Source: Janthinobacterium sp. 64
GTDB taxonomy: Bacteria; Pseudomonadota; Gammaproteobacteria; Burkholderiales; Burkholderiaceae_D
Length of the DNA: 64,000 nt
Direction: 5' to 3'
Assembly: GCF_002813325.1 (NCBI RefSeq)
Contig: NZ_PHUG01000002.1
Span: 1-64,000, forward strand
How positions within the stretch are numbered: position 1 is the first letter of the stretch; every line of letters begins with the position of its first letter. The position numbers and the translations under genes were made by a program. Below, piece by piece: positions 23,138 through 44,000 of the stretch. Below the pieces are notes generated by a model, which did not search any database, was not told the DNA's origin, and was given only the letters and a program-made list of their open reading frames with translations.

Positions 23138-23655
23138 GGAGGCTTTGAAAGAAAACGGCCGAGAGACCGTTTTCCCGTTCGTTTGCACATAGTTGTTCCC
23201 GAAATTTGCATAAATTTGTTCCTCCCCCCCCCTAGCAGCAAATCTTGAGTACGCCGACATCTTACTGAGGTGCTAGCCGACAGCATTGTTGGGTGTTCAA
23301 GAAATTGATTGAACTGTGACTGTCTTCGATTCATCCGCTTGCGCAAACCTTATCCGTGCAACAACGCCCCCCCCAGCATCCGAACGCCGCCAGCATTTTC
23401 GCTGCATTGGATTGAAGGTGAGTGGTCGGCGTTAATTGCGGCTGCTTGCCGGTCGGCTGATGCGGAGCTCTCCATCGAGCGCGTGATGCCCAAGACGCTG
23501 TTGAACGAGCTGCCGGTGGTAGAAGTTTTCGGGCATTGCGGAGAAGCCGCTGCGGCTGAGTGCACTAGGTGCCAATATGGTCGAAGCTACACAAGCGACA
23601 GCCTCCACGCCGACAACGAGTTGCTCTAGATGCTCATCAATATGACCGAACAACG
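23138..23655. other. Intergenic with gene remnant
   Basis: Contains a second hairpin, GAAAACGG/CCGTTTTC (23151-23174), and runs of C at about 23224 and 23366. A plus-strand stretch around 23405-23540 reads like protein (WSALIAAACRSADAELSIER) but lacks a start and ends in non-coding sequence. I take it as a remnant of an unknown gene. Confidence 0.3.
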
Positions 23656-24879: not shown

Positions 24880-25193
24880 GACACCCTTTTATTTTTCCGG
24901 GGAACACGTTGGCGAACTGGCCTGCTGGCTTCTTCCAGTTCCTTGATTGACGTCGGCTTTTGCAAAAAGAGCGATTCAAGTTCTTTTGTCAGGCCCAAGG
25001 CAACGACAAGGCGCAACGACGTTTCGAGTGTGGCCTTCCCCGTCTTTTCAAAACCAGACACCGTGCCCAATGCGACGCCCGCGCGCTGTGCGAGTTCAGG
25101 TTGAGAGAGTTCCAGGCGCATGCGTTGTGCTTTGAGACGCCGCGCTATCTCCATGCACAGTTCGGTGGGTGTGGCGAATGTAAAATCCAACAT
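24876..25193 (-). CDS. hipB: HipB-like HTH antitoxin
   Basis: A 105-aa Xre-type DNA-binding protein. HTH at ~residues 18-70 (RRLKAQRMRLELSQPELAQR, then GTVSGFEKTGKATLETSLRL) and a basic C-terminal tail (RQRVPRKNKR). It precedes hipA with an ATGA overlap. HipB binds both its operators and the kinase; repeats that may be its operators lie just upstream. Confidence 0.9.
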   Translation of the reverse strand: MLDFTFATPTELCMEIARRLKAQRMRLELSQPELAQRAGVALGTVSGFEKTGKATLETSLRLVVALGLTKELESLFLQKPTSIKELEEASRPVRQRVPRKNKRVS

Positions 25194-25195
25194 TT

Positions 25196-25325
25196 TGAAG
25201 TTAGCGCACTATATGGAAAGTAATTTCACTATTTTAGCATTTAAGGAACTTAGAACGAAGTGCATATACTACTAAATTCATATAAGTGAAGTTATTCTCT
25301 TATTTGAGGATTTAACTTCAAGTTA
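25196..25325 (-). promoter_or_regulatory. hipBA promoter with repeated TAACTTCA operators
   Basis: An AT-rich region directly before hipB. The octamer TAACTTCA (or its complement TGAAGTTA) occurs at 25196-25203, 25287-25294 and 25313-25320, the last within the near-palindrome TAACTTCAAGTTA. The first copy overlaps the region just before the start codon. These are good candidates for HipB autorepression sites; the classical TATCC-N8-GGATA operator is absent. Confidence 0.5.
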
Positions 25326-25611
25326 TTGATCTAAGTAGCTGGTAGTTAGTCATGGAAGCACATCACGCCGGGGTCGTTTCTGATCGTCACGGAGATCACC
25401 CTCAGCCGGCATCCAAACGGCGAGTTCACGTGGCGGGCAGGCTCAATAGACCGGCTGGCGTCAGTGCCTTCGGCGACTCACTCCACGGTTGCTGCGAAAC
25501 GCCTTTGCACGTCAACGATTCCCCATTTTCTGGCCCTTGATCGTCGCCTCGACACTCGTCCTCGCGTACACTGTGCAAACGGCGGTCTTCGTCGTCTTTC
25601 TTTCGCTACCT

Positions 25612-26220
25612 ATGAACGATCTTGAGTTTGTACAGCACGTGTCGGCGCCCCTCGGCCAGCTATACGGGGAAGCTAAGCGTAGCGCGCGGCAATTTCCCAG
25701 AAATACCTTGATCGCGGCAAGGTCGATGGCGAGCATGTGTTGCGACCTGCTGCGCCGGCATGAGGTAGTCGATTGGCCGGATGGCTTGGAAGAGAAAATC
25801 CGGGCATTGGAGCAGGCACGACGCATTAACCGCGACACTCGGGACCGGCTCACCCAGCTACGCCGATGGGGCAACGCAGCAGCACATCCCGAAGCGAGCT
25901 TGATCGATGAGACGCACCAGTCGGAGCGGGCTGGACGCGCCTTATCGGCGACAATCGCACTGCTTGAAACTGTGTTTCAGGAAGTGCATCACGGTGCAGC
26001 GGTACCCGCCTACTGGATCGTTGAGGACGATACAGACGAGCTGCAGGCGACTTGCTACCGTGCGTTGTTCGACAACAAGCCTGGTGATCAGCATCAGGTG
26101 GCGCTGTTATTACGTCATCAACTCGACACAAAGATCGCCGAGGTGAGATTGCAACCAGACCCTGAATTGGAGATGTGCGGATTCAATCGGTGGTCGCAAC
26201 ACTCTAACCTAAACGCCTAG
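25612..26220 (+). CDS. HEPN/DUF4145-like protein, 3' end altered by IS30
   Basis: A ~202-aa protein from the ATG at 25612; the open frame extends back to 25489 but that extension is an unrelated hydrophobic stretch. It matches the DUF4145 HEPN pattern: helical bundle (NTLIAARSMASMCCDLLRRH) and LRRWGNAAAHPE, which contains an R-x6-H motif like that of HEPN RNases. The last ~15 codons come from the IS30 left end, so the native C-terminus has been replaced. It may be an inactivated toxin or nuclease partner. Confidence 0.6.
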   Translation: MNDLEFVQHVSAPLGQLYGEAKRSARQFPRNTLIAARSMASMCCDLLRRHEVVDWPDGLEEKIRALEQARRINRDTRDRLTQLRRWGNAAAHPEASLIDETHQSERAGRALSATIALLETVFQEVHHGAAVPAYWIVEDDTDELQATCYRALFDNKPGDQHQVALLLRHQLDTKIAEVRLQPDPELEMCGFNRWSQHSNLNA

Positions 26221-27404
26221 GTTACAGGAGTGTTGAAGATGAAACAGAAACCACGCATTACTACACCGAGAACCAGAAGGCCTTGATGTGGGAGCGCTGG
26301 AAACGAGGCGACACCCTGCAGATGATAGCCCAGCTATTTGATCGGAATCATTCGTCGATACAGCGGATTCTGGCTGAGTCTGGTGGCATACGGCCAGCGC
26401 CGCGATGCCGTTCCAGAATGGCGCTGACGCTGGCCGAGCGCGAGGAGGTATCGCGTGCCATCGTTGCAGGCCTATCCATCCGCGCACTTGCCAGACGCCT
26501 TGGACGAGCACCATCGACCATCAGCAGGGAACTCAAGCGCAACGGTGGCCGCGAGGCATATCGCGCGACTCAGGCCGATCAGCATGCTTGGGATCAGGCG
26601 CGTCGCCCCAAACCTTGTAAGCTGACGGAGAGCCGCATGCTGGCCAACATGGTTGCCAGCAAGCTCCAATTGCAGTGGTCACCAGAACAGATTGCTGGCT
26701 GGCTCAAGCAGCTGTTCACGAGCCACGAGGAGTATCACGTGTCGCACGAAACCATTTACCGCAGCCTCTACATCCAGGCCCGAGGCGCCCTAAAGAAGGA
26801 GCTGCTGGAGCATTTACGCAGGACGCGCGCCAAGCGCCGTTCACGTCATCACACCCAAAAGACGGACAACCACGGCAGAATTGTCGACGCCGTGTCGATC
26901 AGCGAGCGTCCAGCGACGGCAGCGGATCGAGCGGTGCCCGGGCATTGGGAGGGGGACCTGCTATGCGGCAGCCACAACAGCCAGATCGTGACCTTGGTTG
27001 AACGCCAGACGCGCTATGTCATGCTGATAAAAGTCGCCGCCAAAAATACCGAAACGGTGGTCAACGCATTGATCGACAATGCCCGCAGGCTTCCCCAGGA
27101 ACTGTACAAATCACTGACCTGGGATCGTGGCAGCGAGCTCGCTGGGCATAAACGCTTTACGTTGGCCACCGACATCCAAGTCTACTTCTGCGATCCACAG
27201 AATCCATGGCAGCGCGGTTCAAATGAAAATACCAATGGCCTGTTGCGCCAGTATTTCCCCAAGGGGCTGGATATTTCCACGTATTCGCAAGAGCAACTCG
27301 ATGCAGTAGCCAGAAGACTCAACGAGCGCCCCAGGAAGACGCTACACTACCAAACACCGGCTCAACGATTTGAACAGTGTGTTGCGTTGACCGATTGAAT
27401 CCGC
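26177..27404 (+). mobile_element. IS30-family insertion sequence (complete)
   Basis: About 1228 bp bounded by inverted repeats GCGGATTCAATCGGT at the left (26177) and its complement at the right (27390-27404), continuing with partial matches to about 26 bp. It contains one full transposase gene. It inserted in the 3' end of the HEPN gene. No clear short target duplication could be assigned. Confidence 0.85.
26286..27398 (+). CDS. IS30-family transposase
   Basis: A ~370-aa transposase. N-terminal HTH of the IS30 type (GLSIRALARRLGRAPSTISR followed by RNGG), WSPEQIAGWLK, and a C-terminal DDE integrase core (ending QRGSNENTNGLLRQYFPKG, then RRLNERPRKTL). It starts at the ATG at 26286 or the TTG just before; an upstream in-frame region without ATG reads HYYTENQKAL and may belong to the protein through an unusual start. 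It runs to 6 bp from the right IR edge, as usual for the family. Appears intact. Confidence 0.9.
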   Translation: MWERWKRGDTLQMIAQLFDRNHSSIQRILAESGGIRPAPRCRSRMALTLAEREEVSRAIVAGLSIRALARRLGRAPSTISRELKRNGGREAYRATQADQHAWDQARRPKPCKLTESRMLANMVASKLQLQWSPEQIAGWLKQLFTSHEEYHVSHETIYRSLYIQARGALKKELLEHLRRTRAKRRSRHHTQKTDNHGRIVDAVSISERPATAADRAVPGHWEGDLLCGSHNSQIVTLVERQTRYVMLIKVAAKNTETVVNALIDNARRLPQELYKSLTWDRGSELAGHKRFTLATDIQVYFCDPQNPWQRGSNENTNGLLRQYFPKGLDISTYSQEQLDAVARRLNERPRKTLHYQTPAQRFEQCVALTD

Positions 27405-27524
27405 AGCCAAAAGCGGTCGCATGAAGTAAGAACTCAGCGAAGGGTGGCTCGTATCCATCTGCCTCGCGAATATTCAATGTATGTGGCCATGACAAGCAAC
27501 ACTCCCGCCAAAAGTTGAGGTGGT

Positions 27525-28238
27525 ATGACCGAAGCCAAAATTTCGAAATTCCTACGCATTGATCCGGCAGCTGTAGTGGAAAGCCAAAGTGAGAGAGGAG
27601 AATCCACAATTACTGGTCCTGCGGACTTTATTCGCTCTCTAAGAGCAAAATATGGAATTCTAGAGGCTTCATGGGACGATTTGCTTCAACTTGGGCACGC
27701 AACGCGTTATGGCGTTGTTCTCGCTATTCGGGAAGGACAAGCGAGGGTGAAATGGAGTCCAACTGATGTATCTTATCGCCCCAATCCATCGGGACGTCGC
27801 TGGTGGAAACAAACGAAACCATTCTTTAGTTTTGCTCCGGACGTGGTTGACCGCTACATGCTTTCCGCGACGTTTGCCGAGCACTTTCCTGAAGACTTGT
27901 CTTTCGAGGTGGTCGACCGGTCTAGTTCCATACCTTCAGATATTCGTCCGTCCAACATACCGACCGGGGGTTATGTTTACCTCATACGATCACAATATGG
28001 CGTCAAGATCGGAAAAAGCGTAAATGTGAGGAGCAGAACGCGGCTCTTTGAGGTCAAGCTGCCCTTTCCGATCTCAGTGGAGCACTATGCTTGGTTCGAC
28101 GACTATTCGTATGCTGAACGGGATCTTCACAGAAAGTATCACGCTAAACGCCTTGAGGGGGAGTGGTTTAACCTGTCAAAGGAAGACGTTGCATATATTA
28201 AGACGCTTGGAAAATCTGTCCGTGTCGCCGGTCTCTGA
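27525..28238 (+). CDS. GIY-YIG/T5orf172-type nuclease-like protein
   Basis: A 237-aa protein with GAGGTGGT before the ATG. The C-terminal ~90 residues form a T5orf172-type GIY-YIG domain: GYVYLIRSQYGVKIGKS (~residues 150-166), a following Arg-rich helix, then ERDLHRKYH and LEGEWFNL, supplying the usual Tyr, Arg, His and Glu positions. The N-terminal 140 residues are unassigned and may recognise the substrate. Expected activity is DNA nicking or cutting. The next gene on the strand, an MBL-fold protein, begins 155 bp later. Confidence 0.75.
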   Translation: MTEAKISKFLRIDPAAVVESQSERGESTITGPADFIRSLRAKYGILEASWDDLLQLGHATRYGVVLAIREGQARVKWSPTDVSYRPNPSGRRWWKQTKPFFSFAPDVVDRYMLSATFAEHFPEDLSFEVVDRSSSIPSDIRPSNIPTGGYVYLIRSQYGVKIGKSVNVRSRTRLFEVKLPFPISVEHYAWFDDYSYAERDLHRKYHAKRLEGEWFNLSKEDVAYIKTLGKSVRVAGL

Positions 28239-28392: not shown

Positions 28393-29649
28393 ATGATACG
28401 CGAGATTAGAACGCAATTGAATTTTCATCCCGTAGGTCAGGGTTTGTACGCTTCTGGCCATCTATATGAAGAACTGCATATGCCTACGCAACCGTTCTTT
28501 TCATGGGTGTATGACTGCGGAACCCTTTCCTCAAATGCGCTCGTCAACAATGCATCCAAACTCCTGAAGACGGCGCTGGGCGGAGCCGCAAAACCCCGGT
28601 TGGGTCTGGTCGTCATATCACATTTTGATAAAGACCACATTAGCGGCCTTGTAAATTTGCTGTTGAATTTTCACGTCGAAGTCCTGCTTATGCCTTATTT
28701 GGTTCCTTGGCAACGTGCCGCCATAGTTTTTGGAAATGGCGTATACGTATCGAAACGTGATCGAGCATTTATTCTGGATCCGGTTGGCGCCATCGCCGCG
28801 ATGCAGGGCGTTCAGGTTGATCACATCGTTTGGGCGGTTGCGGGTGATCAGAATGCTTCGCCCGATGGCGACGATAACTTCGTAAATCGGAATGAACCGC
28901 CGGTATTGACGATAGATGAAGGGGCCCCAGAGGATGACTGGCAGTCTTGGGAGGTAAATCGCGGATCGTTGCAGGGCATAGCGAAGGTGTCGATGCTGCG
29001 GCCAGGCGGACGCCTTTGCATTCGTGGCATTTGGGAGTTTGTTCCTTATCAGGATGCAACCATTAAAAAGAAGCCGGATGCGTCATTCTTAGCGGATGCG
29101 TCAGCTAAGCTGGAATGGCTGCTGAAGGCGCCTTGCGAGGCATTCAAGGATGATGTTTTAAAACGCCTAAAGGCTCTTTACGAAGCGCGTTTTGTCGGTA
29201 GCAAGCAACGTAATATTATTTCCATGTTCATGTACGCTGGTAGTTTAGGTGCCGCGCGAATGGCAAGGTGCGGATGCACCATTCCAATGGCTGCCAATTA
29301 CGCGCCCATATGTGTTTTTCATCACTTCGATATGGTCAATGTTATCTACACTGGTGATGGCTATTTGGATACCCCAAAACGCTTGTCAAGTCTATTCAAG
29401 CACCTAGGCGCTAGACGCATGCAGCATGTTCTTGTTTTTCAGGTAATGCACCATGGAGCCCATGCCAATTGGCACTCCGGGCTGGCGCACAGCATAAGGC
29501 CAGGAGTGAGTGTCTTCTCTTCGGATCCCACGCGAGGAGACCGACCCCATCCCCATAAGCCGGTGGAATTAGACTTTGCTGCGTATAGCCCGCGCCAAGT
29601 TGATCGTTTTAAAGGATTAAGCCTCGCAGGCTGTTTCTCTGTGAATTAA
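28393..29649 (+). CDS. Metallo-beta-lactamase-fold protein (first of three)
   Basis: A 418-aa protein with the MBL metal motif in its HxDxDH form: HFDKDHISGL at residues 77-86, and a later metal-site-like segment VMHHGAH (~353) after YTGDGYLD. This arrangement resembles the ComEC-type MBL domain without its membrane part. No signal peptide, so cytosolic. Function is probably hydrolysis of a phosphodiester or nucleotide substrate. The ribosome binding site is weak (AAAAAG). It follows the GIY-YIG gene on the same strand and may be functionally linked. Confidence 0.7.
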   Translation: MIREIRTQLNFHPVGQGLYASGHLYEELHMPTQPFFSWVYDCGTLSSNALVNNASKLLKTALGGAAKPRLGLVVISHFDKDHISGLVNLLLNFHVEVLLMPYLVPWQRAAIVFGNGVYVSKRDRAFILDPVGAIAAMQGVQVDHIVWAVAGDQNASPDGDDNFVNRNEPPVLTIDEGAPEDDWQSWEVNRGSLQGIAKVSMLRPGGRLCIRGIWEFVPYQDATIKKKPDASFLADASAKLEWLLKAPCEAFKDDVLKRLKALYEARFVGSKQRNIISMFMYAGSLGAARMARCGCTIPMAANYAPICVFHHFDMVNVIYTGDGYLDTPKRLSSLFKHLGARRMQHVLVFQVMHHGAHANWHSGLAHSIRPGVSVFSSDPTRGDRPHPHKPVELDFAAYSPRQVDRFKGLSLAGCFSVN

Positions 29650-30349: not shown

Positions 30350-32038
30350 TTAGTATCGATGGCTCGTTGTGGAATGTGGTGGTATCGTAAATTTCCAATG
30401 CTTGCGCTCGTAAGATAGACCAGTGATTAATTGCCGCAACCCAAGATTTTTGGCCTGTGCCCCCAAGGCCTCGTCCAGCATGCGACGTACGTGCTCTGAT
30501 GATGGCGTCGTGTCAGCGAGAAGCTCCAAACCACTGACATGACGCAATTCCGCCGCTAAAGTCATATTCAGTCCCACGCTCACAGGCTCATGCTGGACCC
30601 GGCCTAAGGGCGTTTCTAGAGTGGCGCAAAATAATTCGAGGCTACAAGTACGCACGTCTCCATGCAGTTGATAGCTGAAAAATTGGGAGGCGAAGTAGAT
30701 ATGGCGCGGATCTATGGACAAGCGCGCATATTGATTATCCAGTATCTGCACCAGTCTCAAATTACTCGTCTCCAGTTTCGCTCGAAGACTCTGTACGGCA
30801 GATAGATCGTCGATTCGGACCCAGCCATGCGGAAGCAATAACTTACTTCCTAGGCCGCCAGTAAATGGCAGCGATTTCGCATGCCAGGCCAGCGCCCACA
30901 ACCACCCATGCTCCGTTTCTGTCAATTGCGCTGCATATACTTTCAAGGGCTTGCCGCTACGACCGCTCGTCAGATTACCGTCAAACGTAAGTGGAATATC
31001 CACCCCAACGTGGGGAGTGGAAAATAGATAAGGTTCATCGATCGCTAGCGGCAAAGCTGCCATTGCTTCCATTCCGGTACCAAAATGTTCAACTAACGCG
31101 GTAACAAAAGCGCGCTGCCCATCGAGATTACGCTCTACACCTAATTCGTCCGCAGTAAACCAAGCGAATAATTCTGGATATAGCTGTAGCCTCTCAAAAA
31201 GCTTAACGACGCCGAGGGTATTTAGTCGCAGCGGGAAAAGACGAATTCGATATTCGGTATACGCATGATGATTCCTAGCACCTTCAACTCGGCAATAAGG
31301 CGGGACGTCGAGAGCTTCGCCGCACGTGTAATGATCTTGCTCCGACAGGCCCAGCTCTTCATGTAACTCACGAAACAGTGAGCGCTGAAGATATTGCATT
31401 GGCCAGTGAGTGGCCCCATAGGCGAAATCGTATTCCGCTTCCTGCGGCCGCGCTGCCAACGGGACATCGCTCAACTTGAAGCGACCGCCCGGCAAGCCAA
31501 AGTATCCTTGCGCATCGGCACGTTTTTTATCTTCCCGCGCGTACAACAGAAACTTATCACCTACGCGAATCACACCCCATGCGACATAGACGAAACGGAT
31601 AGGTCTGGATTCCTGTGTTGGGTGATAGCGCAAGCGGCCAGTTTCAAGCCGGCGTAATAAGGCGCGTTGCTCATCAATATCGCTGTCACTGGCCTGCGTC
31701 CCCCAGTAGCCAGGATCGACAATAGTGTGCAGGTCAGTTGCCATAGTCTCAAGCAGGGAACGCGCTACTAACCATGCAGCGTAGGACTGGAATCGCCAAG
31801 TCCCTCTGGCAGCACTGGCAAGATCAAGCATGGCAAGGGCACAGAACAACCGTTCGACAGTGGCTAAGGTGGCCTCTATCTCCCCCTGCGTAGCAATATC
31901 ACCCAATCGGTCAGCCAAAGTGCTTCGATCCAAGTCCTGTCTTACATCATCTTCGGCCAACATCGGTGGCAATAAGTAGCCTATGCGCTTGAATAAGTTT
32001 CCGAGGTAAGCAGCCATGCCAACATTGCTCTTAATCAA
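30350..32038 (-). CDS. Large NUDIX-domain protein
   Basis: A 562-aa protein starting at TTG 32038 (GGAG 5 nt upstream) or ATG 32017. The middle has a NUDIX domain: FVYVAWGVIRVGDKFLLYAR, then LPGGRF and the catalytic helix RELHEELGL. About 35 residues are inserted between the GG and the REUxEE helix, so the Nudix box is split. Flanking N- and C-terminal regions (~150 and ~250 residues) are unassigned; the C-terminal part looks beta-rich. NUDIX enzymes hydrolyse nucleoside diphosphate-linked compounds; here it could act on a signalling nucleotide or NAD derivative (inference). It diverges from the MBL/E2-E1-JAB operon, so shared regulation is possible. Confidence 0.75.
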   Translation of the reverse strand: MIKSNVGMAAYLGNLFKRIGYLLPPMLAEDDVRQDLDRSTLADRLGDIATQGEIEATLATVERLFCALAMLDLASAARGTWRFQSYAAWLVARSLLETMATDLHTIVDPGYWGTQASDSDIDEQRALLRRLETGRLRYHPTQESRPIRFVYVAWGVIRVGDKFLLYAREDKKRADAQGYFGLPGGRFKLSDVPLAARPQEAEYDFAYGATHWPMQYLQRSLFRELHEELGLSEQDHYTCGEALDVPPYCRVEGARNHHAYTEYRIRLFPLRLNTLGVVKLFERLQLYPELFAWFTADELGVERNLDGQRAFVTALVEHFGTGMEAMAALPLAIDEPYLFSTPHVGVDIPLTFDGNLTSGRSGKPLKVYAAQLTETEHGWLWALAWHAKSLPFTGGLGSKLLLPHGWVRIDDLSAVQSLRAKLETSNLRLVQILDNQYARLSIDPRHIYFASQFFSYQLHGDVRTCSLELFCATLETPLGRVQHEPVSVGLNMTLAAELRHVSGLELLADTTPSSEHVRRMLDEALGAQAKNLGLRQLITGLSYERKHWKFTIPPHSTTSHRY

Positions 32039-32229: not shown

Positions 32230-33366
32230 ATGGCTCATAAAATTGTGTTCTACCCTGTCGGCAATGGCGACACCTGCCAGATCATTTTGGAGAACGGCAA
32301 ACGCATTCTGATGGACTATCGCCATCGCAAAAAAACCGAAACGGGCGAAGGCCCAGAAATCAACCTCAAAGCCCGCCTCAAAAAGGAGCTCAAAGACGCG
32401 AGACGTAATTCGTTCGACGTGGTGGCGTTCACCCACGGCGATTCCGACCATATCGAGAACAGTACTGAGTTTTTCGAGTTGACGCACGCCGCCAAATACC
32501 AGGGTGAAGGAAGGGTTAAGATCGATACACTGTGGGTCCCCGCCGCCTTGGTGCTCGAGAACGCGACGAACGATCAACAATCCGCGGAGTTCATCATCTG
32601 GCGGCAAGAGGCGCGTTACCGCCTGAAGCAAGGCACGGGCATCCGCGTCTTTTCGAAACCCGAGAAGCTGAAGGGCTGGCTGGAGGAAAATGGGCTGACG
32701 CTCGAATCGCGGCGCCATCTCATAACCGATGCTGGCAAGATCGCACCGGACCTTTCCTTGGACGCAGACGGCGTTGAATTCTTCTGCCACTCACCCTTTA
32801 TCAAGCACGTGGACGAGGGAGATGACCTGCGTAACGCGGCCTCGCTCATCTTCAATGTCCGCTTCCGTCAGGGCGAGAGCCACTACGATTTCCTGGCAGT
32901 TGGCGATTCGGAGTGGTGCGTGCTGGAGGACATTGTCAAGACCACGAAGGCCCATGGCAACATGGACAGACTCGCATGGGACCTGTACAACATCCCCCAT
33001 CACTGCAGCTATCTTGCCCTGAGCGATGTGAAGGGCACGTATGAGACGGTACCGAAACCGTACGTCGAAGATATCCTGTTGGCTGGGAAAGAAGGGAGCT
33101 ACATCGTCAGTTCCAGCTGCCCTATCCTCGACACCAAAGAGGGCCGGGAGCAAATCCAGCCGCCTCACATTCAGGCCAAGAGGTGCTATCAGCGCTATCT
33201 GGACAAGACGAATGGTGCCAAATTCCTTGTAACGATGGAGGAACCGAACGCTACCCGTCCTCAGCCGCTGGAGTTTAAGGTCGAGGCGCAGGGGCTGTCT
33301 CTCGTGAGTGCTGCTGCGTCGGCTGCATGCATCATCATCTCCAAACCGGCGCCGAGGGCTGGCTAA
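32230..33366 (+). CDS. Metallo-beta-lactamase-fold protein of the E2-E1-JAB operon
   Basis: A 378-aa protein starting at the ATG at 32230 (AAGGA upstream); an open extension back to 32110 is not protein-like. MBL motifs: FTHGDSDHIEN (residues ~68-78, HxDxDH), VGDSEW (~225) and NIPHHCSY (~257). The start, FYPVGNGDTCQI..ENGKRILMDY, is the usual first strand pair of ComEC-like MBL proteins. The C-terminus is a hydrophobic Ala-rich stretch followed by a short tail ending ..PAPRAG, i.e. a terminal glycine. The stop abuts the GTG of the E2-E1-JAB gene with no gap. It occupies the place where type II CBASS has the nucleotide cyclase. Confidence 0.75.
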   Translation: MAHKIVFYPVGNGDTCQIILENGKRILMDYRHRKKTETGEGPEINLKARLKKELKDARRNSFDVVAFTHGDSDHIENSTEFFELTHAAKYQGEGRVKIDTLWVPAALVLENATNDQQSAEFIIWRQEARYRLKQGTGIRVFSKPEKLKGWLEENGLTLESRRHLITDAGKIAPDLSLDADGVEFFCHSPFIKHVDEGDDLRNAASLIFNVRFRQGESHYDFLAVGDSEWCVLEDIVKTTKAHGNMDRLAWDLYNIPHHCSYLALSDVKGTYETVPKPYVEDILLAGKEGSYIVSSSCPILDTKEGREQIQPPHIQAKRCYQRYLDKTNGAKFLVTMEEPNATRPQPLEFKVEAQGLSLVSAAASAACIIISKPAPRAG

Positions 33367-35679
33367 GTGATCCGCTCATACCATGCGCTCGGCCAAGTGC
33401 TATCGGGCCTGGCACCGGAGCAGCTGGCACATGCCCAAAGCAGGCAGATGCTGGCCGCCTGCCATAGGCATCCGGCCTTCTCGGTCGTCGAATTGAGGAA
33501 AATCTCGAATCCATCCGACGTCAGCAAACCGGCTATTGACGGGATTGTAGTCGATTGCTGCGACGGCACGGTGCCTTCGAGGAACCTGATCGGCATCCAC
33601 AATAAGGAGCGCCTGTTGCTGCTGCACGGGCCTGGCCTCTTGACGCCTCATGAGGTCAGGGCGCTACGCACCGGATTTCCGGCAACCGCGCACCAGAACA
33701 GCATTTTTAACGGCGAACCTACCTCACTATGCCTCTATTTTGAGCCTTGGAGCGCGGTGGAGCGTACTTGGACCCCTGAAAAGCATCTACAACGTATCCT
33801 GTGGTGGCTGCGCGAGACCTCTGCCGGCACCCTCCATCGCACAGACCAACCACTGGAGCGCCTGTACTTTGTCTCCCCGTATCAAATTGTGCTGCCGGCC
33901 GACTTCAACGAGCGAGTGGCCCGGCGTACGGAGGTGCTTCACCTCGCGTGCGCGCGATCACGTGACAAGGGCACCATGTTACGCGGGGCGTTCGGCCCGC
34001 GGCCCGAGAAACACGCTGCCCGCGATGACTTCGGCCTGGATATCTTGGTCGTCGCCGTGCCGCCGGCCCTCTCAACGCGGATCGAACGCTATCCGGCCGA
34101 TTTATGTGCACTGCACGACCAACTGGTCGCGCGTGGCTCGACGCTTCTCGCACCCCTACAGGAAGCCGCGAAGCAAGCGATGTCTGGTTCTGGCATGCCG
34201 TTGCACGACCCGGCGGCTCAGCATACGTTGCTGCTGTTACAGATTCCCGTCACGCGAGCTGGCAGCCAAACGCCGGAGAGAGTCGACGTTTCCGGATTCG
34301 TCGTGCGCGGGGCCCCTCTCAGCCGGCTCGGCCTTGACACCGGTGCGTTTTTCGACGGCCGGGACGGGAAAGCATACGTATCCAATACCCTTTCACTCTC
34401 ACGGGATACTACCGCAGACGAGTCCCCAAAAGCATGGCGCGGTCTGCCAATTGAACCGATCGACGTCAAGGTCGCCTTCGGTGCCGCGGATGTGCACAGA
34501 GCCTCTGGCGTGGACAATGCCGCCGGAGACTTCCGGGGTATCCTGGCAGGAGTAGGTGCGCTTGGTAGCAGCATGGCTGAAATCTGGAGTCGCGAAGCGT
34601 GGGGCCGCTGGACCTACGTCGACGATGATATCCTGCTACCACACAATCTTGTCCGCCACATCGGTAAGGATCTGCACATCGGTTGGGCGAAGGTTGATGT
34701 TGTCGCACAGATGGGAGAACTGAACTGGCCATCCAGCGTAAAACCCGAGGCGGTCTACGCCAATGCCACGGACAATGAGAACCCGGACGTACAACGCGCA
34801 GTTTGCGAAGCCCACCTGTTTGTCGATGCGACGACTACTCTCGAAGTGCCGCGCGACCTGTCTGATCGCGATGATATGCCACGAATGGTATCCACCTTCA
34901 TAACCCCGTCAGGACGGAGTGGCGTATTACTATTCGAGGACGAAGCACGGTCAGCGCGTCTGGCATGTCTGGAAGCGCAATATTACCGCGGCTTGCTCAA
35001 TTCCGACTGGGGCGCTACCCACTTGGCTGGTCATCAGGGCAGCTACTGGGTTGGTGCTGGCTGTCGAGATCTGTCCGGCGTGCTCGCCCATGAACTCGTC
35101 CAATTGCACGGAGCGACTCTAGCCAGACAGGTCCGACTACTGGCGACTCAGCCTGACTCGCAGATCCGGGTATGGACCGTAGACGAGGAAAGCGGCGCCG
35201 TTTCCGTCAATGTGGTTACGGTGGCCCCATCTGTGGAACGCAAAGTCGGCAAATGGCGGGTGGTGTGGGACGAGGAACTGGCGAGGAAAGTTCGCCACCT
35301 ACGCGACCAGTCACTGCCGAACGAAACGGGTGGCGTGCTCCTTGGTTACGTGGACCAAAAGCGTGACGCGATCCACCTCGTCGACGTTCTACCGGCACCA
35401 AGAGACAGCGACGCCAACAGAACCAGCTTCAGCCGCGGTGCAACAGGACTACCCGAGGCCATTGCAGAAGCGGCTGGGCGAACGGCCAACATCGTCGGCT
35501 ACCTCGGAGAGTGGCATTCGCACCCGCAGCACGCATCGGCAATGCCAAGCGCCGCCGACCAGACGTTGCTCGCTTACCTCGCGGACACACTGTCACTAGA
35601 CGGAGTACCCGCACTGATGCTTATCGTCGCAGACCGTGACATATCAATTACGATCAAGGAGGGTTGCACACATGACTGA
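33367..35679 (+). CDS. E2-E1-JAB triple fusion (ubiquitin-like conjugation/deconjugation)
   Basis: A 770-aa protein, GTG start directly after the MBL stop. N-terminal E2-like domain with candidate catalytic Cys122 in SLCLYFEPW, followed by the helix TPEKHLQRILWWLRE. A ThiF/E1 domain begins near residue 390 with the nucleotide loop GVGALGSS, then YVDDDILLPHNLVRH (adenylating core, Arg finger region). The C-terminal JAB/JAMM domain has GGVLLGY and EWHSHPQ..SAMPSAAD (~714-730), a complete metal site. In CBASS these functions are the separate proteins Cap2 (E2-E1) and Cap3 (JAB); here all are in one chain. It overlaps the patatin gene by 8 bp. Confidence 0.85.
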   Translation: MIRSYHALGQVLSGLAPEQLAHAQSRQMLAACHRHPAFSVVELRKISNPSDVSKPAIDGIVVDCCDGTVPSRNLIGIHNKERLLLLHGPGLLTPHEVRALRTGFPATAHQNSIFNGEPTSLCLYFEPWSAVERTWTPEKHLQRILWWLRETSAGTLHRTDQPLERLYFVSPYQIVLPADFNERVARRTEVLHLACARSRDKGTMLRGAFGPRPEKHAARDDFGLDILVVAVPPALSTRIERYPADLCALHDQLVARGSTLLAPLQEAAKQAMSGSGMPLHDPAAQHTLLLLQIPVTRAGSQTPERVDVSGFVVRGAPLSRLGLDTGAFFDGRDGKAYVSNTLSLSRDTTADESPKAWRGLPIEPIDVKVAFGAADVHRASGVDNAAGDFRGILAGVGALGSSMAEIWSREAWGRWTYVDDDILLPHNLVRHIGKDLHIGWAKVDVVAQMGELNWPSSVKPEAVYANATDNENPDVQRAVCEAHLFVDATTTLEVPRDLSDRDDMPRMVSTFITPSGRSGVLLFEDEARSARLACLEAQYYRGLLNSDWGATHLAGHQGSYWVGAGCRDLSGVLAHELVQLHGATLARQVRLLATQPDSQIRVWTVDEESGAVSVNVVTVAPSVERKVGKWRVVWDEELARKVRHLRDQSLPNETGGVLLGYVDQKRDAIHLVDVLPAPRDSDANRTSFSRGATGLPEAIAEAAGRTANIVGYLGEWHSHPQHASAMPSAADQTLLAYLADTLSLDGVPALMLIVADRDISITIKEGCTHD

Positions 35680-36877
35680 AATGACTGCAGAGCAGCGAGC
35701 TTTCAGCGTGGCGCTGTCGGGAGGCGGTGTGCGGGCGGCGGCGTTTCACTCCGGCGTGATGCGTTACTTGGCCGAGCAGGGACGACTGGGGGACGTCGTG
35801 CACATCTCGTCCGTATCTGGAGGGAGTCTGTTCGTCGGCATGGTTTTCTACCTAAACGACTATTCTTGGCCCAGCTCCGAAGCATACCTCTCTATGGTAT
35901 TCCCTCGCTTCCGGCAAATTCTGACCACAAAATCCCTGCAACGGTCGGCCCTGCGCCGCCTGATCATCAACCCGCTCAACTGGCGCTTCCTGCTATCACG
36001 GGCAAATGTCCTCGCGCAGGCGATCGAAGCGACTTGGGGCGTGAATGGAGACCTCGCTGCGATCGATAATGTACCGTCCTGGTCTATCAACTGTACGACC
36101 GCCGAAACAGGACGCCGATTCAGGTTCAAGCGCATGACGATGGGTGATTACGAGCTAGGCTACGCCAGTGTCGAAAAGTTTAGCCTAGCCAAGGCCATGG
36201 CCATTTCAGCCGCGTTCCCGGGGGGCATTGGACCGCTTTCGGTAAAAACCAAAGCTTTCCAATGGAGGAAGCGTCCCGGGGAATGGGGGCAAGGGCAGGG
36301 AAGTGCTGTACCGTTCGCGCCGCCTTTCAAACGGCTGCATCTGTATGACGGCGGATTGTACGACAACCTCGGCATCGAACCGCTATTTGATATTGGCAAA
36401 CAGACACTCAAGCGGGACGAGACGTTGGACCTCCAGGCAAAGTTCCTACTCGTGTCCGACGCCGGCGCAGCTCTAGGACGAAAGCCAATCCTGCACCCCC
36501 TAAATCCATTTCGGTTCGAGCGTATCGTCGACATTGCTCTGGACCAAACCAGGTCGCTGCGTGTTCGTGCGCTAATGAACGTTCTCCAGCGGGAGTCCGA
36601 ATCTGGTGCCTACCTGGGTATCGGGGCGACAGCCGGTACCAGCATCCATCGATGCGCCGCAGGCCGCGAACCGATTGCGGCACGGCTACAGGCCTACTGC
36701 TGGCTATCGGAGGCTGAAGCAAGGTTAGCTGCGGCGTACCGTACGACACTGTGCCGCATGACGGAGCCAAGCTTCGACCTTATCGCCCGGCATGGCTACG
36801 AAACGGCCAAATGGAATCTAGAGCTGTTGGCGGGCTGGCCGGCCCAGGCAACGGATCTGAGCGTCATCGCTGCGTGA
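35672..36877 (+). CDS. Patatin-like phospholipase
   Basis: A 401-aa protein from the ATG at 35672 with AAGGAGG 7 nt upstream, inside the end of the E2-E1-JAB gene. Patatin motifs: oxyanion hole SGGGVRAAAF (~residue 14), nucleophile in SSVSGGS (~48; first Gly of GxSxG replaced) and the catalytic DGG in YDGGLYDNLG (~228). No signal peptide. Patatins degrade membrane phospholipids; CapV of CBASS is one such effector. In this operon it is the likely killing effector, with activity controlled by the upstream conjugation system (inference). Confidence 0.8.
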   Translation: MTEMTAEQRAFSVALSGGGVRAAAFHSGVMRYLAEQGRLGDVVHISSVSGGSLFVGMVFYLNDYSWPSSEAYLSMVFPRFRQILTTKSLQRSALRRLIINPLNWRFLLSRANVLAQAIEATWGVNGDLAAIDNVPSWSINCTTAETGRRFRFKRMTMGDYELGYASVEKFSLAKAMAISAAFPGGIGPLSVKTKAFQWRKRPGEWGQGQGSAVPFAPPFKRLHLYDGGLYDNLGIEPLFDIGKQTLKRDETLDLQAKFLLVSDAGAALGRKPILHPLNPFRFERIVDIALDQTRSLRVRALMNVLQRESESGAYLGIGATAGTSIHRCAAGREPIAARLQAYCWLSEAEARLAAAYRTTLCRMTEPSFDLIARHGYETAKWNLELLAGWPAQATDLSVIAA

Positions 36878-36986: not shown

Positions 36987-38084
36987 TCACTGATAAAGTC
37001 TTGGATCCAAAGCATCCCCGTCGCTCAACAAGCCGAGGTGCGCGAGAATATTCCGGCACCGTGCGAGCCATTCGGCCCGATCCTTGAGTTCGCCACGAAT
37101 TCCACGGGTCTGCGCCACATAAGCTAAGGAGCCAATCTCAAGTTCTTCGAGAGATCGAATTTGGCGTTTGCTATCAATCCACAACGGACAGGGCACATGT
37201 CGCTCCAGGCTCCGGACCAGCTCTCTTCGCCGAACTTCGATTAGCGGCAGCAATTCGGCAGCCTGCGCAGTCCACATTCGCCGCTGCAGCTCTTTCGCAG
37301 GATCACTACCGTCGAGCAAAGCAAATGGATGTAGCATATCAACACCGTCGAAGTGGTCTAAACCACCACTTTCCCAATTGCTTCCCAGCGTGCTATCGCC
37401 GCGGCCAAGAGCACAGCGCGCGGCTTGCAGTATAACTTCGATATCAAACACATCCCGTTCAGGCTGATTTATTAGATAGTCAGCGAGATCAAGATCCCAC
37501 AGCGCTAGCGCAGCAATTTGGCGCACGATGAGTTTGTGATGGCGGGCACGCTTGCGGATGCACCGCAGACGCTGATCAACGTAAGTCAGTGTGTCCAGTT
37601 CGCCGAATACTCCACTCCAAATACTGGTAGTCAATGCCGCCCTCTCAGCCTGAAGGCACTTTTGAGGTACACCTCGAACAAAAACCAACAAGACTGGACG
37701 CTCGTCAGATGCCCGCTGACGACTCGCAACTTCGAAGTCGCGCAGAAACGTCCACCAAGCATCCCAATTTAACGCTGTCACACCCTCAATTACTATCAGT
37801 TGGCCAGCTCTTAGCTGGCTGCATAGTTTTTCGGCATTCCAACCAACCCACTGCACCGGCTCAAGGTAAAGTGAATCTGTAAGCCACTTGAGCGGATCCC
37901 CAGGCGAATCGATCGTCACCCTTTCAGGCGCCCAATGTGTATGTCTAAGCTGTTCAACGAACGCGTCCTCTAAATTGGGCTGAGCAAAGTTCGGCGTAGC
38001 GACGACAACGCTAATGCCATCGCGCATTTGCTGCATGACACCATCGATAAAATCGGCGGGACCTGGCAAGGTATACCACTTCAT
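36987..38084 (-). CDS. Hypothetical protein coupled to the giant ATPase
   Basis: A 365-aa protein whose ATG overlaps the stop of the 2060-aa gene by one base (TGATG). The layout recalls a P-loop NTPase that lost its Walker A: a strand ISVVVATPNFAQPN where the P-loop would be, LIVIEGVTALNWDAW in the Walker B place and RPVLLVFVRGV as the next strand. The C-terminal half is helical. It resembles the C-terminal region of its upstream partner (TVMLVPPSVPWNTEWVEAA), so the pair may share a degenerate ATPase-like module. Family not recognised. Confidence 0.6.
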   Translation of the reverse strand: MKWYTLPGPADFIDGVMQQMRDGISVVVATPNFAQPNLEDAFVEQLRHTHWAPERVTIDSPGDPLKWLTDSLYLEPVQWVGWNAEKLCSQLRAGQLIVIEGVTALNWDAWWTFLRDFEVASRQRASDERPVLLVFVRGVPQKCLQAERAALTTSIWSGVFGELDTLTYVDQRLRCIRKRARHHKLIVRQIAALALWDLDLADYLINQPERDVFDIEVILQAARCALGRGDSTLGSNWESGGLDHFDGVDMLHPFALLDGSDPAKELQRRMWTAQAAELLPLIEVRRRELVRSLERHVPCPLWIDSKRQIRSLEELEIGSLAYVAQTRGIRGELKDRAEWLARCRNILAHLGLLSDGDALDPRLYQ

Positions 38085-41000
38085 CAGCCGGCATCCCCAA
38101 ACATGCGTTTGGCGAACGAATCAAGGGCCCAGGTCGCTCCTGGCTGGCGGATCACCAGCCCCAGTGGCTCAGCCCATCGAAGCGCGCGCTTGACGACATC
38201 ACCCGGCAGCCCCCCATACTCGATAATGTCGTTCTCGCTGACACCATCGCCCAAGCCTTGCAGCGTCGCCAGCACAGCCTCGGCCTCCTCAATCCCGCCA
38301 GTTAGCCGGAGTCGATTGTTGAGCCGCCATTCGTAATCGGTCAGAAGCTTAGTCATTCGCTCCAAGTTATTTACAAAATCGAGTGTCTTCACGCGCGCAG
38401 CAGACTCGAGCAACCCGCCCCAGAAACCCGTCAGGGCTTCAAGGCGATCAACGTTATCGGTCGGTAACTGCAGTTCCTCGAGCCATTTTCGAACGAATCC
38501 TCGCGCCCATGGGAGCACCGACAACCACGGCTCGAACCACTCATCCTGTTCTCCAATAGTGGCTGCAAGAGCCCACAAACGCTGAGGATCGGCGACGAAC
38601 ACCACAGAAACGAAACTAGTGGCCGACGTCAGCGCCCTTACCTTTGCCTGTGCCGCTTCCACCCATTCTGTATTCCACGGCACGGACGGTGGCACCAGCA
38701 TCACAGTAATACCATCGGTGACACGTCTCTTAATCTCTTTGCCAAGCTCTAGTGCGAAGCTCTTCTGGTCTGCTGCCCCATCCAGCTGTATGAAAAGCCG
38801 GCTGTCTGCCATTCCAGGCTGGTCTAGCAAGCCTGGTAACAGGTTATCGATGCCTGATGCCTCACTGGCAGCCACGAGCGAAACTGAGCTACGCATCTGT
38901 ACAACTTCGTCAAGCTGGCGATAGGTCAGCGGATTGCGCGCCGGATTATCGACGCGCCCTCCGAGCGTGGGGCGGAAAATCGTAGACTTGAATTCGATCC
39001 TCGGCTCACGTTCGGCCTGTAGGGTGTTCTCTATCTCCTGCTTACTTCCCAGCAATAGCAATACGTTCGGATTACGCAGACTGAAGCACTCGGCTGTTTT
39101 AGCTTGGCTCAGCACCCCGAGCTGGACCATCTCCTCCAGCAGGGCGAGGAAATCTCGTTCGGAGGTCGTTGCAAACCCTTCAGGCCACCAGGAATTCGCG
39201 CAATCCTGCCAGATTGATCGCCAGTCAATACCCTTCACGTGGTCATAGCCGCGGGTGAGTGCCTCCAGGCCAATGGCATAGGCAATCACCTCATAGCGCG
39301 CATCCAGTTGGAGGGTGAGCCGGAATTTGGAGCGGATGGCCTCGCGCAGCGGACGTCCGGAGAAGACCGATTCGATGTCCGTTTCTTGAATCTTAAAGCG
39401 TGGGCCAGCAACATCGCGGCGTTTCAGCTTCGTTTCGCGCAGATGCCTAAGCAACTGAGTGCAATACAACTGGATCAGGCTCGGGTAGTAGTTGGTCTGG
39501 GCTAGCACACGCATGACGAGGCTGCGGTCATCGAACTCAAAGCCCGCGGCTTCGATCGGCCGAGTAATGAGTTCCTCCGCTGCCCGAATCTCGCGCTCAT
39601 CCATTAAGGGGCCGATCCGAACTGCCTCATTCAGGTGTCCAAGCGGTTGGTTGGAGGTACTCGCCGTCCTAAGAACATTATGCAGTCCGGCAAAAACGAC
39701 CTTGAACCGTCGATCCGTCTCATCCATGAGTTGCTTCAACCGCCGGGTTTCAGCGTATGTGCCGCCACAGTGGGAATCCTGTTCAAAGAAGTGGTCAGCC
39801 TCGTCGAGGAGCAGCAAGATCCGTCGCGCCGGCGCCATAGCCAAGAACGTCTTGATCGACGCGAGGAATGCATCAATGGAAGTCGGCTTAGCCGGATTGA
39901 CGGGAGGCATATCCAAACCGGTGATCTTCAGCTCACGGAGCTTGTCGTACACGGAGAGCCACATGTCGATCGCGGGGCGGCGCTCACCAATCCCTTGCGC
40001 GAGCAAGTCGATCCACACCGCATAATGGTCGGTCGATGGATTGTGGAAGGTTTTTTCAGCCCGCCGAAGCAAAGCGGTTTTCCCCAGTTGGCGGCCTCCA
40101 TAAATGAAATAGCAGCCCCCTTGGGCCTTCACCGCTTCAAGTTCAGCAACCCGCCCATAGAACATCTCCGGAGGAACAAACCCGGCACTAGCGTCGTAGG
40201 GCTCGCTGTAAGTAAAAGGTAAGGCGACGTCAAACCAGGTCGCGAGGCGCGATCCGCGCTGGGCAAGCAAGAACAGCAGGATCGACTCGTCGAGCAGGAG
40301 GAAGGAGCGCTGGCGATCTTTGGAGAGGCGTGCGAGCTCGGGCCAAAATCGTGCCGGACTACGCGAAAGCACCAGCACAATAGTAGCGGTCTGTTGGCTG
40401 GTCTCACCGATTCGCTGAAGCAAGTCCTCCGGCGTCAACCGATCAGTCAGGACGACCACGCGATATCGCCCCTGCGCGCGCGAGCCAAAATGCGGCACCG
40501 GGCACACTTCGCGGTCCACGATGGGCGCCACCTGGAGTGACCATGCTCCCCTCCCCTGGTCGACCAATGGAGCCGTGAACCCCAGCGCATCCAGGATCTT
40601 GCGCAGGTTGTCACGCGACATACTTCGCTTGGCGACAGACAATGCCCATGCCCGGTAGACACTCTCAGCTTCCACTCGCGCCGGCTCATCACCCTCTAGA
40701 TCGAAGGAAAGCGGCCCAACGGCACCGCCCGTGCGGATCAGTTTGTCCACGTCCGATGCCTCCAACCGCGCGAGCTGACTCAGCAATTCAGCCTGCTGCG
40801 CCGGGAAAAACTTCCGGAACGAGTCCTTGCGCAGGTCGCGCTCGGGCCAAGGTTCCATATCTTGCCTTACTCGCTGCATCAACTCATTAAACGTATGGAT
40901 ATCCGAACGTGCGAGCGGTGCTGCTACCTGCCTAGCCACTTCTTCAGAAAGACTAAACTTTTCACGCTCAAACTCATCACAGGCATCCTGGACTCGATGA

Positions 41001-44000
41001 GCCTTTTGCTGTTCGATCTTGCTGGCAACAGCCTCGACTCGCGCCACGGCCTGATCGAAGCGATCAATATCTCGCTGACTCAGTTCCACAGCGCTAAGTT
41101 CACCCTCGCACGCTGCGCGTTCGCCATCGCTCAGGTAACCGTAAGCGAGACCGACTTCCGATGCCCGACGAGCCTCCTGGATTTTGCGCTGGAGGTCTCT
41201 GGCCCACGCGTCCCTGTTCTTATCAATCGACTGCTTGCGGACACTGGCGTCTCCCTCGTCGGACAAGTCTTTTAGCAATAATAACGCGCCGGCGAAATCT
41301 CCGGCTTCGACGTGGGCATCAAATGCTTCCGCCGCATCGCTAGGCGATGCGATCCAAGCTTCCAAGGAGTGTAACAGCTGCACGCCGTCAGCTTCGATAC
41401 CCCACTCGTGCGAGACGAACATACCTGGCACAAGCAGAAGATCGCGCGTAAGCAGTTCCTTGGCTTGGATTTCTGCTAATGGCACAGTGTCGCTTTGCCT
41501 GAACATGTTCACAATGGCCTGGATTTCGGTGCGCAACACACGGCTGGCCGCGTCGACTTGGCCCCATTGATCGCCATCCCAGCTTTCATTCAGTTCGGCA
41601 CAGGCTTGCTCGGCATGGGCATCAAAAGCTCCCTGTAGCTGGCGGACAAGACCGCGCAACCGCCCTCCAGCATCCGATAGTATGCTTTCCGCGCCCAGCC
41701 ATTCCTTTGCCAACGTTACCGCCTCGCAGGTAAGAACCCACAAGTGCTCCAGTGCACCCGCTTCAATGTCTTGGCCTCGGCGGCCCAACTGACGCCTATC
41801 GGTGTCTGTTACACGCTCCTGGAAAGCATTGTAGTTCGAAAACTCCTCGATCGCTATCCGAATAGCGTTGCGCTCTTCCGTGGCGCCGCGCATCACCGGA
41901 GAAATCAGTTTATGGATGGGCTCCCCAGGCTTCAACCAATGCAGCCAGACCTTGGATGCAGGTGCGTAACGGATCTTCTTATTTGGGGCACGTTCGAGCA
42001 GCCAATCTTCAGCATCTTTCTGAAGCATCGCCAGTTGCGCTTTTTGCGACGCGTCATCTGCCGCAGAACGAAGTACGGTGGGGCCAATCGCGAAACCTGT
42101 CAACGGCTCGCTCACTTCACCCACCAAGCGCACCAATCGCAGCAGCGCCGAGTAACGGCCATTCAGATGGCGATAGCTGGCAATCACGGCTGCTCCCATT
42201 GCCGGGGCCAAGACCATCGGGCGGAGGGTCGCAGCGATCAGAAGCAGATTAAGCGCGGTGTGCCAATTCGACGGCGCGTCTCCCGGCTCGAACCATGCTT
42301 GGTCGATTTCACCGAAGGCCTCGCCAATCGACATTGCCAATGGTCCGTCACCCGCGATAAGTCCAGGCGCCAGCGCCACGGAGCGCAGCAACGCTGGCGG
42401 TGGAACGCGGAGGTTCGGGGATGTGGCATGCAGTGCATTGGCAAACTGATACGCAAGCGAAGGCATTCCCATTCTTAACAAGGACCAGATGGGGCGGCAC
42501 TGCTCGCCGGCCGTGTTATTGAAATACATGTCAGACGCAGCCCCTCCAGCTTCGTCAAACCGTGCCAACTCGGCTGTTGAGGCGACCGCATTAACTACCT
42601 CCACGGTCTCGACGAGCTGCTCTGGTCCTTTTTCGGTATGCGCTGTATCCGCCGGCGATATGTCGCTCCCGCAGACGTCAATTTGCGCTGTAGTGATCGC
42701 TAGTGGCACGTCTGACGACTCGTACTCTCCGGTCCTTGTTTCCGCGGTATCATCGGCCTCATCGGGTTGCCCAGCGTTCGCCGAGTCTTCGACGGTCTGA
42801 ACAAATTCCTCGGCATCGGCGGTGTCTTGAACGTCACTTAAATGTGAGTTCAGCAGTGCTATGCCGCCGCTCAACTGCGATGCCATCTCAGCGGCATAGT
42901 CGAGGTTTGGATCATAAGCCTCGCCGCGCGGCGATGCCGACGCCAATACAAACAGCATAGCGTCAGGGTATTTGCGTTCCGCTCCGAGGAGTTCTTCCTT
43001 CGCCTGCAACTGCCGATTGGTCAAGTCGAACTTTCGGACAGCCGAAGCTGGCCGAGCCAATTCCGCATCTATTGCCGCAAGAGCCTGCTTCGCGCTATCA
43101 ACGCCCGCTTGAGCCAATCGCATTTCATCAATCGCAATGACAACCCGCTCAATCGCCAATTCCGCATCGTCGGCCAGCAGTAGAACTGCATCGTCCTCCT
43201 GCGCGTCGGTCAGTGCCAAATGCCAGCGGGCGATGATACTACTTAGGTCCTCCCTGGTTAGCCAAGACAACTCGCTGCAGCTAGCTGCCTCCTCTAGTCG
43301 ACCACACAATACGTCCAGCCGGCGCGCGAGCATGCTAGCTGGTGGCTCCTGGTCCGGCATCGCATCCAACAACCGAGCTGCATCGTTGCCTAGTCCGATC
43401 AGCCTACCAAGTAGTAGACGCGACGGTGGAGGCTGCCACTCCCCGTGAAGCCGGGCTAGCTCCTCTCCGATCATCGCCCACACAGATGAGATGTCCAGGG
43501 GCAACTCGTCCACGGTACTATCTGCGCCCGCTTCGTCGTCCAGCATCTTGGATTGGTGCGCGTCCGGCTCAGGCGGCGACTCCGCGCGTAATATTGATGG
43601 GCTCCTCAAATCGCCAAGTTCGTACATCAAGTCAGGGCAAATCGACACCGACTCATCAATGAACCAGTGCGTCCATCCGATCGACGATAGGGAGAATATA
43701 GCGTGGCTAGCTCTTGTCCGTTGCTCTGCGTCTAATTCCGGCCAGCGCTGCAAATCTTGAATTAAACGTGGCCATAGCATGAACACACCAAGCGGCATCT
43801 GCTCCTTTTCCTTGCGTGCCCAAAATCGCTCAAGCGCTTCGCGTATGCGCTTCCACTCGGCACAGGTTTCCAAGAGCACATCGTTTTCGAGGGAAAAATC
43901 CCTCCACTCCGAATCGTAGGCATCCAACAATTGAACATCGACAGCACGCGCGTATAACTTCGGCCCCACACGTTCCCTGTGCATGATCTTTCTCACGCTT

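Follow-up and report, generated by a model that had tools for sequence, protein, structure and literature searches.

A 6A-MBL operon of Janthinobacterium with a conjugation-type tail on its leading enzyme resembles type II CBASS without a cyclase

Introduction

Type II CBASS (cyclic-oligonucleotide-based anti-phage signalling system) conjugates its nucleotide cyclase, so conjugation has seemed a trick specific to cyclases. The available text of Jenson et al. (PMC10097602) demonstrates conjugation of the cyclase through its last residue, and describes conservation of this residue as glycine or alanine as confined to systems that have both Cap3 and Cap2, the latter with its E2 domain. According to the available text of PMC11153139, which we take to be Krueger et al., a B. 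cereus cyclase with a terminal alanine is likewise conjugated, and the Cap3 orthologue removes it scarlessly. Operons that combine such conjugation modules with metallo-β-lactamase (MBL)-fold proteins include the type 6a operon described by Iyer et al. 2006 (PMC1779556), given in the accessible part of that source as usually having two genes; its main text, as far as available, mentions neither patatin nor phospholipase. Here we analyse a 64,000-nt stretch from Janthinobacterium sp. 64 (hereafter the window), which carries at positions 32230–36877 an operon of an MBL-fold enzyme, an E2-E1-JAB fusion and a patatin.

The first two genes correspond to operon type 6a, known in NCBIfam as the 'anti-phage 6A-MBL system', as an earlier note on this DNA had anticipated when it mentioned reports of E1/E2/JAB operons with MBL genes. 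The operon thus belongs to a named and apparently little-described system whose gene pair was known before. Neither the NCBIfam name nor a source for it was found in the literature searched. What is new here is a conjugation-type tail on the MBL, which gives the mechanism specific residues at which it can be tested, and a swappable membrane effector. No publication on the tail was found; literature coverage was partial and absence from print is not claimed. As read from sequence, the operon combines this gene set with intact catalytic residues, an invariant tail and a third gene that is swappable and predicted to be membrane-active.

Results

Architecture of the operon

All three genes are intact and on the + strand, and open reading frame (ORF) coordinates bear out the tight packing reported earlier. 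The MBL ORF runs from an ATG at 32230 to a TAA ending at 33366; the fusion starts with GTG at 33367, leaving zero gap, and its stop ends at 35679 (770 aa); the patatin ATG at 35672 creates an 8-nt overlap with the fusion, and the patatin stop ends at 36877 (401 aa). The main features are as follows.

32230..33366, + strand: MBL-fold protein, 6A-MBL enzyme (NF058524), 378 aa
32434..32451, + strand: HxDxDH metal-site motif, MBL residues 69–74 (H69, D73, H74 in 76/76; D71 in 75/76)
33298..33363, + strand: variable disordered linker and invariant tail, MBL residues 357–378, proposed conjugation site
33355–33363, + strand: R376-A377-G378, end of the MBL tail (G378 in 75/75, R376 in 74/75)
33367..35679, + strand: E2-E1-JAB fusion, 6A-MBL cap2_3 (NF058523), 640 bits; best Protein Data Bank (PDB) match Cap2 7to3
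33730..33732, + strand: E2 catalytic cysteine C122 (74/74)
34549..34692, + strand: E1 adenylation core, residues 395–442 (GxGxxG, D419, D421, R430, K442; 74/74), aligned to Cap2
35062..35064, + strand: candidate E1 catalytic cysteine C566 (74/74); motif aligns with the GxxC of Cap2 from the same genome
35275..35634, + strand: JAB isopeptidase domain, residues 637–756 (E653, H717, H719, S728, D731), Prok-JAB 44.9 bits
35672..36877, + strand: patatin-like phospholipase, proposed membrane-attacking effector, PF01734 55.4 bits
35720–35728, + strand: patatin oxyanion GGG (48/48)
35816..35818, + strand: patatin nucleophile S49 (48/48)
36347–36355, + strand: patatin DGG, with D226 (48/48)

Both proteins of the pair, which adjoin at 33366/33367, exceed their NCBIfam equivalog cut-offs, the MBL with 392.4 bits against 220 (NF058524) and the fusion with 640.3 bits against 320 (NF058523). 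Pfam recognizes Prok-E2_A (74.6 bits) and Prok-JAB in the fusion and Patatin in the third protein (cut-off 27.7 bits), while ThiF reaches 23.1 bits, under its cut-off of 28.1.

Relatives were collected with the MBL alignment from one genome per species (84,980 species), yielding 185 relatives, of which the best 80 loci by similarity to the window's MBL were kept. A sample independent of the MBL came from 398 genomes searched with the fusion model and comprises six loci besides the window, five of them over the cut-off. A fusion match was present in 76 of the 80 MBL-relative loci. The genes occur together across many phyla, and the set is conserved well beyond chance. Among viral sequences, a scan of viral_contigs gave 28 pattern matches and 0 relatives, and a phage search a single record that matched the JAB part only.

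The fusion set contains 74 sequences (73 loci and the window), excluding L043, L083 and L107, whose fusions are split or cut. Cys122, which the earlier note had named as the E2 cysteine, is invariant in this set, as are E1 Cys566 and the adenylation residues D419, D421, R430 and K442. In the JAB domain, E653, H717, H719 and S728 occur in 74/74 and D731 in 73/74. Searched against the PDB, the fusion profile found Cap2 best, at 76.4 bits; MoeB, at 41.9 bits, was the best match besides Cap2 and the JAB-type peptidase 9ild. In an alignment with the Cap2 encoded on the chromosome of the same genome, the Cys566 motif falls on the GxxC motif. The JAB part scores far under the Cap3 equivalog cut-off (29.5 against 200 bits). 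One further 6A locus with a split fusion (L151, genome G203) contains the same 526-aa ORF twice, one copy lying between the halves.

A conserved tail on the MBL enzyme

The MBL body ends near residue 356 and is followed by a linker (residues 357–373) whose mean entropy of 2.55 bits compares with 1.50 for the whole protein. Behind this variable segment the sequence ends in ...PRAG, with R376 conserved in 74/75, A377 in 72/75 and G378 in 75/75 proteins; the last two blocks of the AlphaFold2 model are disordered (predicted local distance difference test, pLDDT, 37–47). The 75 rows have a median identity to the window of 59% (minimum 31%) and form 22 clusters at 60% identity. L107 and L115, with an in-frame stop, were left out of the residue alignment, and L095, with a broken MBL end, out of the 75 rows; Gly378 stands at 75/76 with L095 included.

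The tail was also counted directly in 77 loci, L056, L087 and L112 being left out as their MBL 3′ ends were not covered. R[AV]G was present in 73/77 MBLs, with 60 ending exactly at the glycine and 13 extending 2–9 residues further. The remaining four comprise L107 with an RMG end, L114 and L115 with SYG three residues before the end, and the broken L095. Among the 120 nearest proteins, RAG forms the C-terminal end in 116 and lies within the last 12 residues in 3 more. Nine plasmid relatives, hand-picked among 246 records, all have a glycine at the end or at most 4 residues from it, and so do the six MBLs of the independent sample within at most 6 residues.

Two controls speak to specificity. 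R[AVM]G occurs in the last 16 residues of 13/661 other ORFs of the same loci, 1/48 patatins and 0/74 fusions, and both R[AVM]G and a terminal glycine are absent from ten MBL3-family MBLs (0/10), seven of which come from 6A loci. The 75 tails use all six arginine, four alanine and four glycine codons in 51 combinations, indicating selection on the protein and not on the DNA; a ribosome-binding site as the cause of the tail was rejected on this count. Other tails (HG, YG) also occur. On the fusion's tree, from which the near-duplicates L050, L068, L105 and L115 were omitted, tail type changes only twice, as is expected for matched partners.

Taken with the Cap2-like fusion, this signature, which is that of type II CBASS cyclases, makes the MBL most likely the conjugated protein. 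We consider it very likely that the MBL is conjugated to targets.

Some loci show duplicated ends. L063, L067 and L068 have a RAG-stop followed by a second in-frame RAG-stop, and in L066 a Trp codon replaces the first stop, giving RAGWRAG. A second MBL follows the fusion in L057, L059, L060, L062, L063, L066, L067 and L068 and has a terminal glycine behind variable residues in 8/8. It may be a second conjugated protein, for which these eight loci of one clade are weak evidence.

Fold and metal site of the MBL enzyme

The HxDxDH motif that had been noticed in the MBL protein lies at residues 69–74. H69, D73, H74, D226, H257 and H258 are invariant in 76/76 aligned MBLs and D71 is found in 75/76; D226 (32905–32907) and H257-H258 (32998–33003) probably complete the metal site. 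The AlphaFold2 model (mean pLDDT 89.4) adopts an MBL fold closest to ComEC, and the protein shows both the fold and the metal ligands of ComEC-type MBLs. Its closest named relative is a Janthinobacterium protein, at 98%. The enzyme is a putative ComEC-type phosphodiesterase or nuclease, and the modelled ComEC-like fold points to a nuclease.

A CD-NTase hidden in the MBL was ruled out, a question for which the earlier note had proposed structure prediction: the predicted model is an MBL fold, and a comparison of the MBL profile with this genome's cGAS yields no alignment (probability 1.1%). CD-NTase folds were also not among the listed structure matches of the model, which by itself proves nothing.

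The third gene

Third genes were assessable in 71 of the best 80 loci, four fusion-less loci and five with short downstream sequence having been left out; the patatin of L083, which lies upstream of the MBL, was not counted. A patatin occupies the position in 47 loci, a small transmembrane (TM) protein in 14 (12 on the same strand, 2 opposite), a second MBL followed by a TM protein in 8, and neither in 2. TM calls were made with a simple hydropathy script. The patatin share is inflated, because the 80 loci are the best of the 185 MBL relatives. In the independent sample, five of the six loci have TM proteins (one behind a second MBL) and one has a patatin; the patatin stands in the locus that scored under the cut-off, whose fusion is split, apparently by an insertion element. 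Of the three-gene set described in the earlier note, conserved co-occurrence therefore stands, and the identity of the third gene does not: it varies between patatin and TM proteins. Among the TM proteins, one is similar to Csx27 (31.9 bits) and one to PDC-M48A; L060 has PDC-M48B as its second MBL.

Parsimony on the fusion's tree, from which 12 rows without a third-gene label were dropped, gives nine changes of third-gene class, with the patatin label changing at least five times on starred branches. This tree and the tail-type tree are both quick builds with long-branch warnings. Where a patatin is present, its ORF overlaps the fusion stop by 4 nt in 28/46 loci. The third gene thus appears as a swappable, predicted membrane-active protein.

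In the window, this protein has the Ser–Asp dyad and the oxyanion hole of a patatin domain; S49, D226, the DGG and the GGG oxyanion loop are invariant in 48/48 patatins, the window included. That it acts as a toxic effector is likely. Its identification as a CBASS lipase was rejected: it has no NCBIfam match at E ≤ 0.01 and shares only short motifs with the CBASS lipase of the same genome. CBASS effectors other than this lipase exist, so the lipase is not strictly required.

Patatins and MBLs also meet in another arrangement. About 135–137 kb along the same contig (L131:6472-8594, G000:C2), an MBL3 gene whose product carries RFRAYQL directly precedes a patatin that shares 47% identity with that of the window; no E2-E1-JAB adjoins them. 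In L039, L073, L079, L113 and L135 an MBL3 gene comes right after the patatin, and in L047 and L100 one comes right before the 6A MBL. The family is rare (2/295 and 2/398 genomes, the window's own genome counted in both), too few to tabulate.

Absence of a cyclase

The absence of a cyclase nearby, claimed earlier, was upheld by the abutting genes and by model searches. No CD-NTase Pfam match was found among 16 scanned window ORFs between 21 and 51 kb, and the nearest nucleotidyltransferase to the operon is the AbiEii toxin at 50376. The cGAS model matched only on the other contig of the genome, C1, and nowhere near the operon; a genome-wide search with the SMODS model had 0 matches, but is a weak test, as it missed the C1 cGAS too. 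The C1 match belongs to a type II CBASS at 5.164–5.168 Mb (L127), comprising cGAS (377 bits), E2-E1, JAB and CBASS lipase (401 bits). The cGAS and lipase exceed their cut-offs; the JAB protein scores 125 bits to the Cap3 model, under its cut-off of 200.

Since the operon contains no cyclase, it is a relative of CBASS and not CBASS. The description of a CBASS-like operon with an MBL in the cyclase's place holds on three counts: a Cap2-like fusion, an MBL gene in first position with a terminal glycine, and a membrane-active effector behind.

Genomic surroundings

The window lies at the beginning of contig C2 (292,485 bp), probably a megaplasmid, in a two-contig genome of 6.30 Mb. Apart from the operon, no ORF of window positions 20001–52000 matched in more than 2 of the 80 loci. 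Genes for integrase, HipA, an rve-domain (IS30-like) transposase, a T5orf172/MUG113 protein and an AbiEi/AbiEii pair lie at 21092–28238 and 49265–51209; because of these genes around it, the operon seems to sit within a mobile defence island.

The operon is flanked by a 562-aa protein (30350–32038, − strand) with a Nudix-like stretch of 15.3 bits, well under cut-off, and by a 365-aa protein (36987–38084, − strand) and a 2060-aa AAA protein (38084–44266, − strand). Relatives of these three are grouped beside the 6A operon in a Roseateles locus (L065), in a different order, and they possibly form a separate defence module. An MBL-like ORF at 28393–29649 (+ strand) has weak matches to LmuA, PDC-M48B, RTasMBL and Avs1a and no C-terminal glycine; at E ≤ 1e-5, none of the 80 loci has a match to it.

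Regulator genes accompany several relatives. WYL genes lie beside those of Acinetobacter, E. coli, Raoultella and Vibrio and beside L128, and helix-turn-helix (HTH) and ImmA/IrrE genes beside the Methylocystis relative. The available part of PMC13373217 names these regulator kinds CapW and CapH+CapP.

Discussion

We propose that this 6A-MBL operon is an anti-phage system that operates in the manner of type II CBASS but lacks a cyclase, a scheme that, taken whole, seems to us fairly probable. The E1 domain would adenylate the C-terminal Gly378 of the MBL and pass the MBL to E1 Cys566 and then to E2 Cys122. The MBL would thereby be joined to amines on target proteins, the enzyme itself taking the role of ubiquitin, and the fused JAB domain would remove it, trimming the tail first where residues extend past the glycine. 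The conjugation state would switch or place the MBL, a putative ComEC-type phosphodiesterase or nuclease, and the active MBL would turn on the third gene product. In the window, the patatin would cut membrane lipids, and the infected cell would be stopped or killed. Phage as the stimulus is suggested by the NCBIfam name and the regulators beside relatives.

The later steps are more tentative. That MBL activity is the trigger falls somewhat short of an even chance. A more specific version, in which conjugation raises MBL activity and the patatin or the small TM effectors are opened by what the MBL makes (a nucleotide or a fragment of nucleic acid, as opposed to a cyclase product), is doubtful.

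Several observations weigh against the proposed scheme. The nuclease suggested by the modelled ComEC-like fold would leave the switching-on of the patatin unexplained. A patatin is the third gene in only 1/6 loci of the independent sample, and two loci, L046 and L099, have no obvious effector. Glycine within the last 7 residues is common (282/661 other ORFs and 5/10 MBL3s), which makes the HG and YG tails of an outlying clade weak evidence singly; the RAG tails are unaffected by this background. Finally, plain co-inheritance alone predicts that tail type tracks the fusion's tree.

The strongest rival, which we judge rather unlikely, makes the MBL the killing effector: a HamM-like ComEC-type DNase activated by conjugation or directed by it to phage or host targets, with the patatin or TM protein as a second, parallel effector. 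The ComEC-like fold suits this account, but the conserved operon contains no protease gene, and a membrane-active third gene in 69/71 assessable and 6/6 independent loci, changing over time, fits an effector commanded by the upstream pair.

It is improbable that the protein conjugated by the fusion is an unseen ubiquitin-like protein (Ubl) distinct from the MBL and that the MBL tail is kept as a degron, for partner docking or as a ribosome-binding site. Bil and Bub do use a separate Ubl, and the tail lies close to the fusion start codon. However, there is no room for a Ubl gene between the abutting operon genes (small flanking ORFs were not searched for β-grasp folds), the codon diversity of the tail argues against a ribosome-binding-site constraint at the DNA level, and a degron is hard to square with extensions past the glycine, some of which again end in RAG.

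Quite improbable, too, is a lipid-acting pair in which the MBL is a phosphodiesterase beside an acyl hydrolase and not a signalling enzyme: the same MBL family pairs with TM proteins, not patatin, in many loci, and ComEC is the closer fold. A true CBASS in trans, with the patatin responding to cyclic GMP-AMP (cGAMP) from the chromosomal cGAS, draws on the type II CBASS on C1 and is highly improbable, as that locus has its own CBASS lipase and the window patatin lacks a match to the CBASS lipase model, sharing only short motifs with the C1 lipase.

If the scheme of a conjugated MBL commanding a membrane effector is true, the operon is a cyclase-free counterpart of CBASS, and any enzyme that makes a danger signal can come under the same conjugation control. 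An unrelated fold with the same tail signature, related machinery and a similar effector suggests that conjugation of the Cap2/Cap3 type serves defence enzymes as a general control module. The residues to test are MBL Gly378, E2 Cys122, E1 Cys566, JAB E653 and patatin Ser49, and the question raised is which signal could pass from an MBL to a phospholipase.

Among known systems, PDC-M48, a PADLOC candidate consisting of a small TM protein and an MBL, is related in that its families are third or later genes in some 6A loci; they are not in the window operon. Bil and Bub likewise use bacterial E1/E2/JAB-type conjugation in defence, with a separate β-grasp Ubl. The ComEC-type defence MBLs (HamM, Avs1, Lamassu and DRT MBLs) share the HxDxDH motif and the ComEC-like fold; by contrast, the window MBL has no trypsin-like protease partner and has conjugation machinery and a conserved C-terminal glycine. 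The 6A-MBL system matches in its MBL and triple-module E2-E1-JAB protein, both window proteins being over the curated cut-offs; to this, the present analysis adds the third gene and the tail at the MBL's C-terminus. Compared with type II CBASS, the window operon has no CD-NTase, its E2, E1 and JAB are in one chain and its patatin falls outside the CBASS lipase family, whereas the two have in common a Cap2-like E2-E1 with catalytic cysteines, a Cap3-like JAB with an intact site, a leading enzyme gene encoding a C-terminal glycine and a membrane-active effector.

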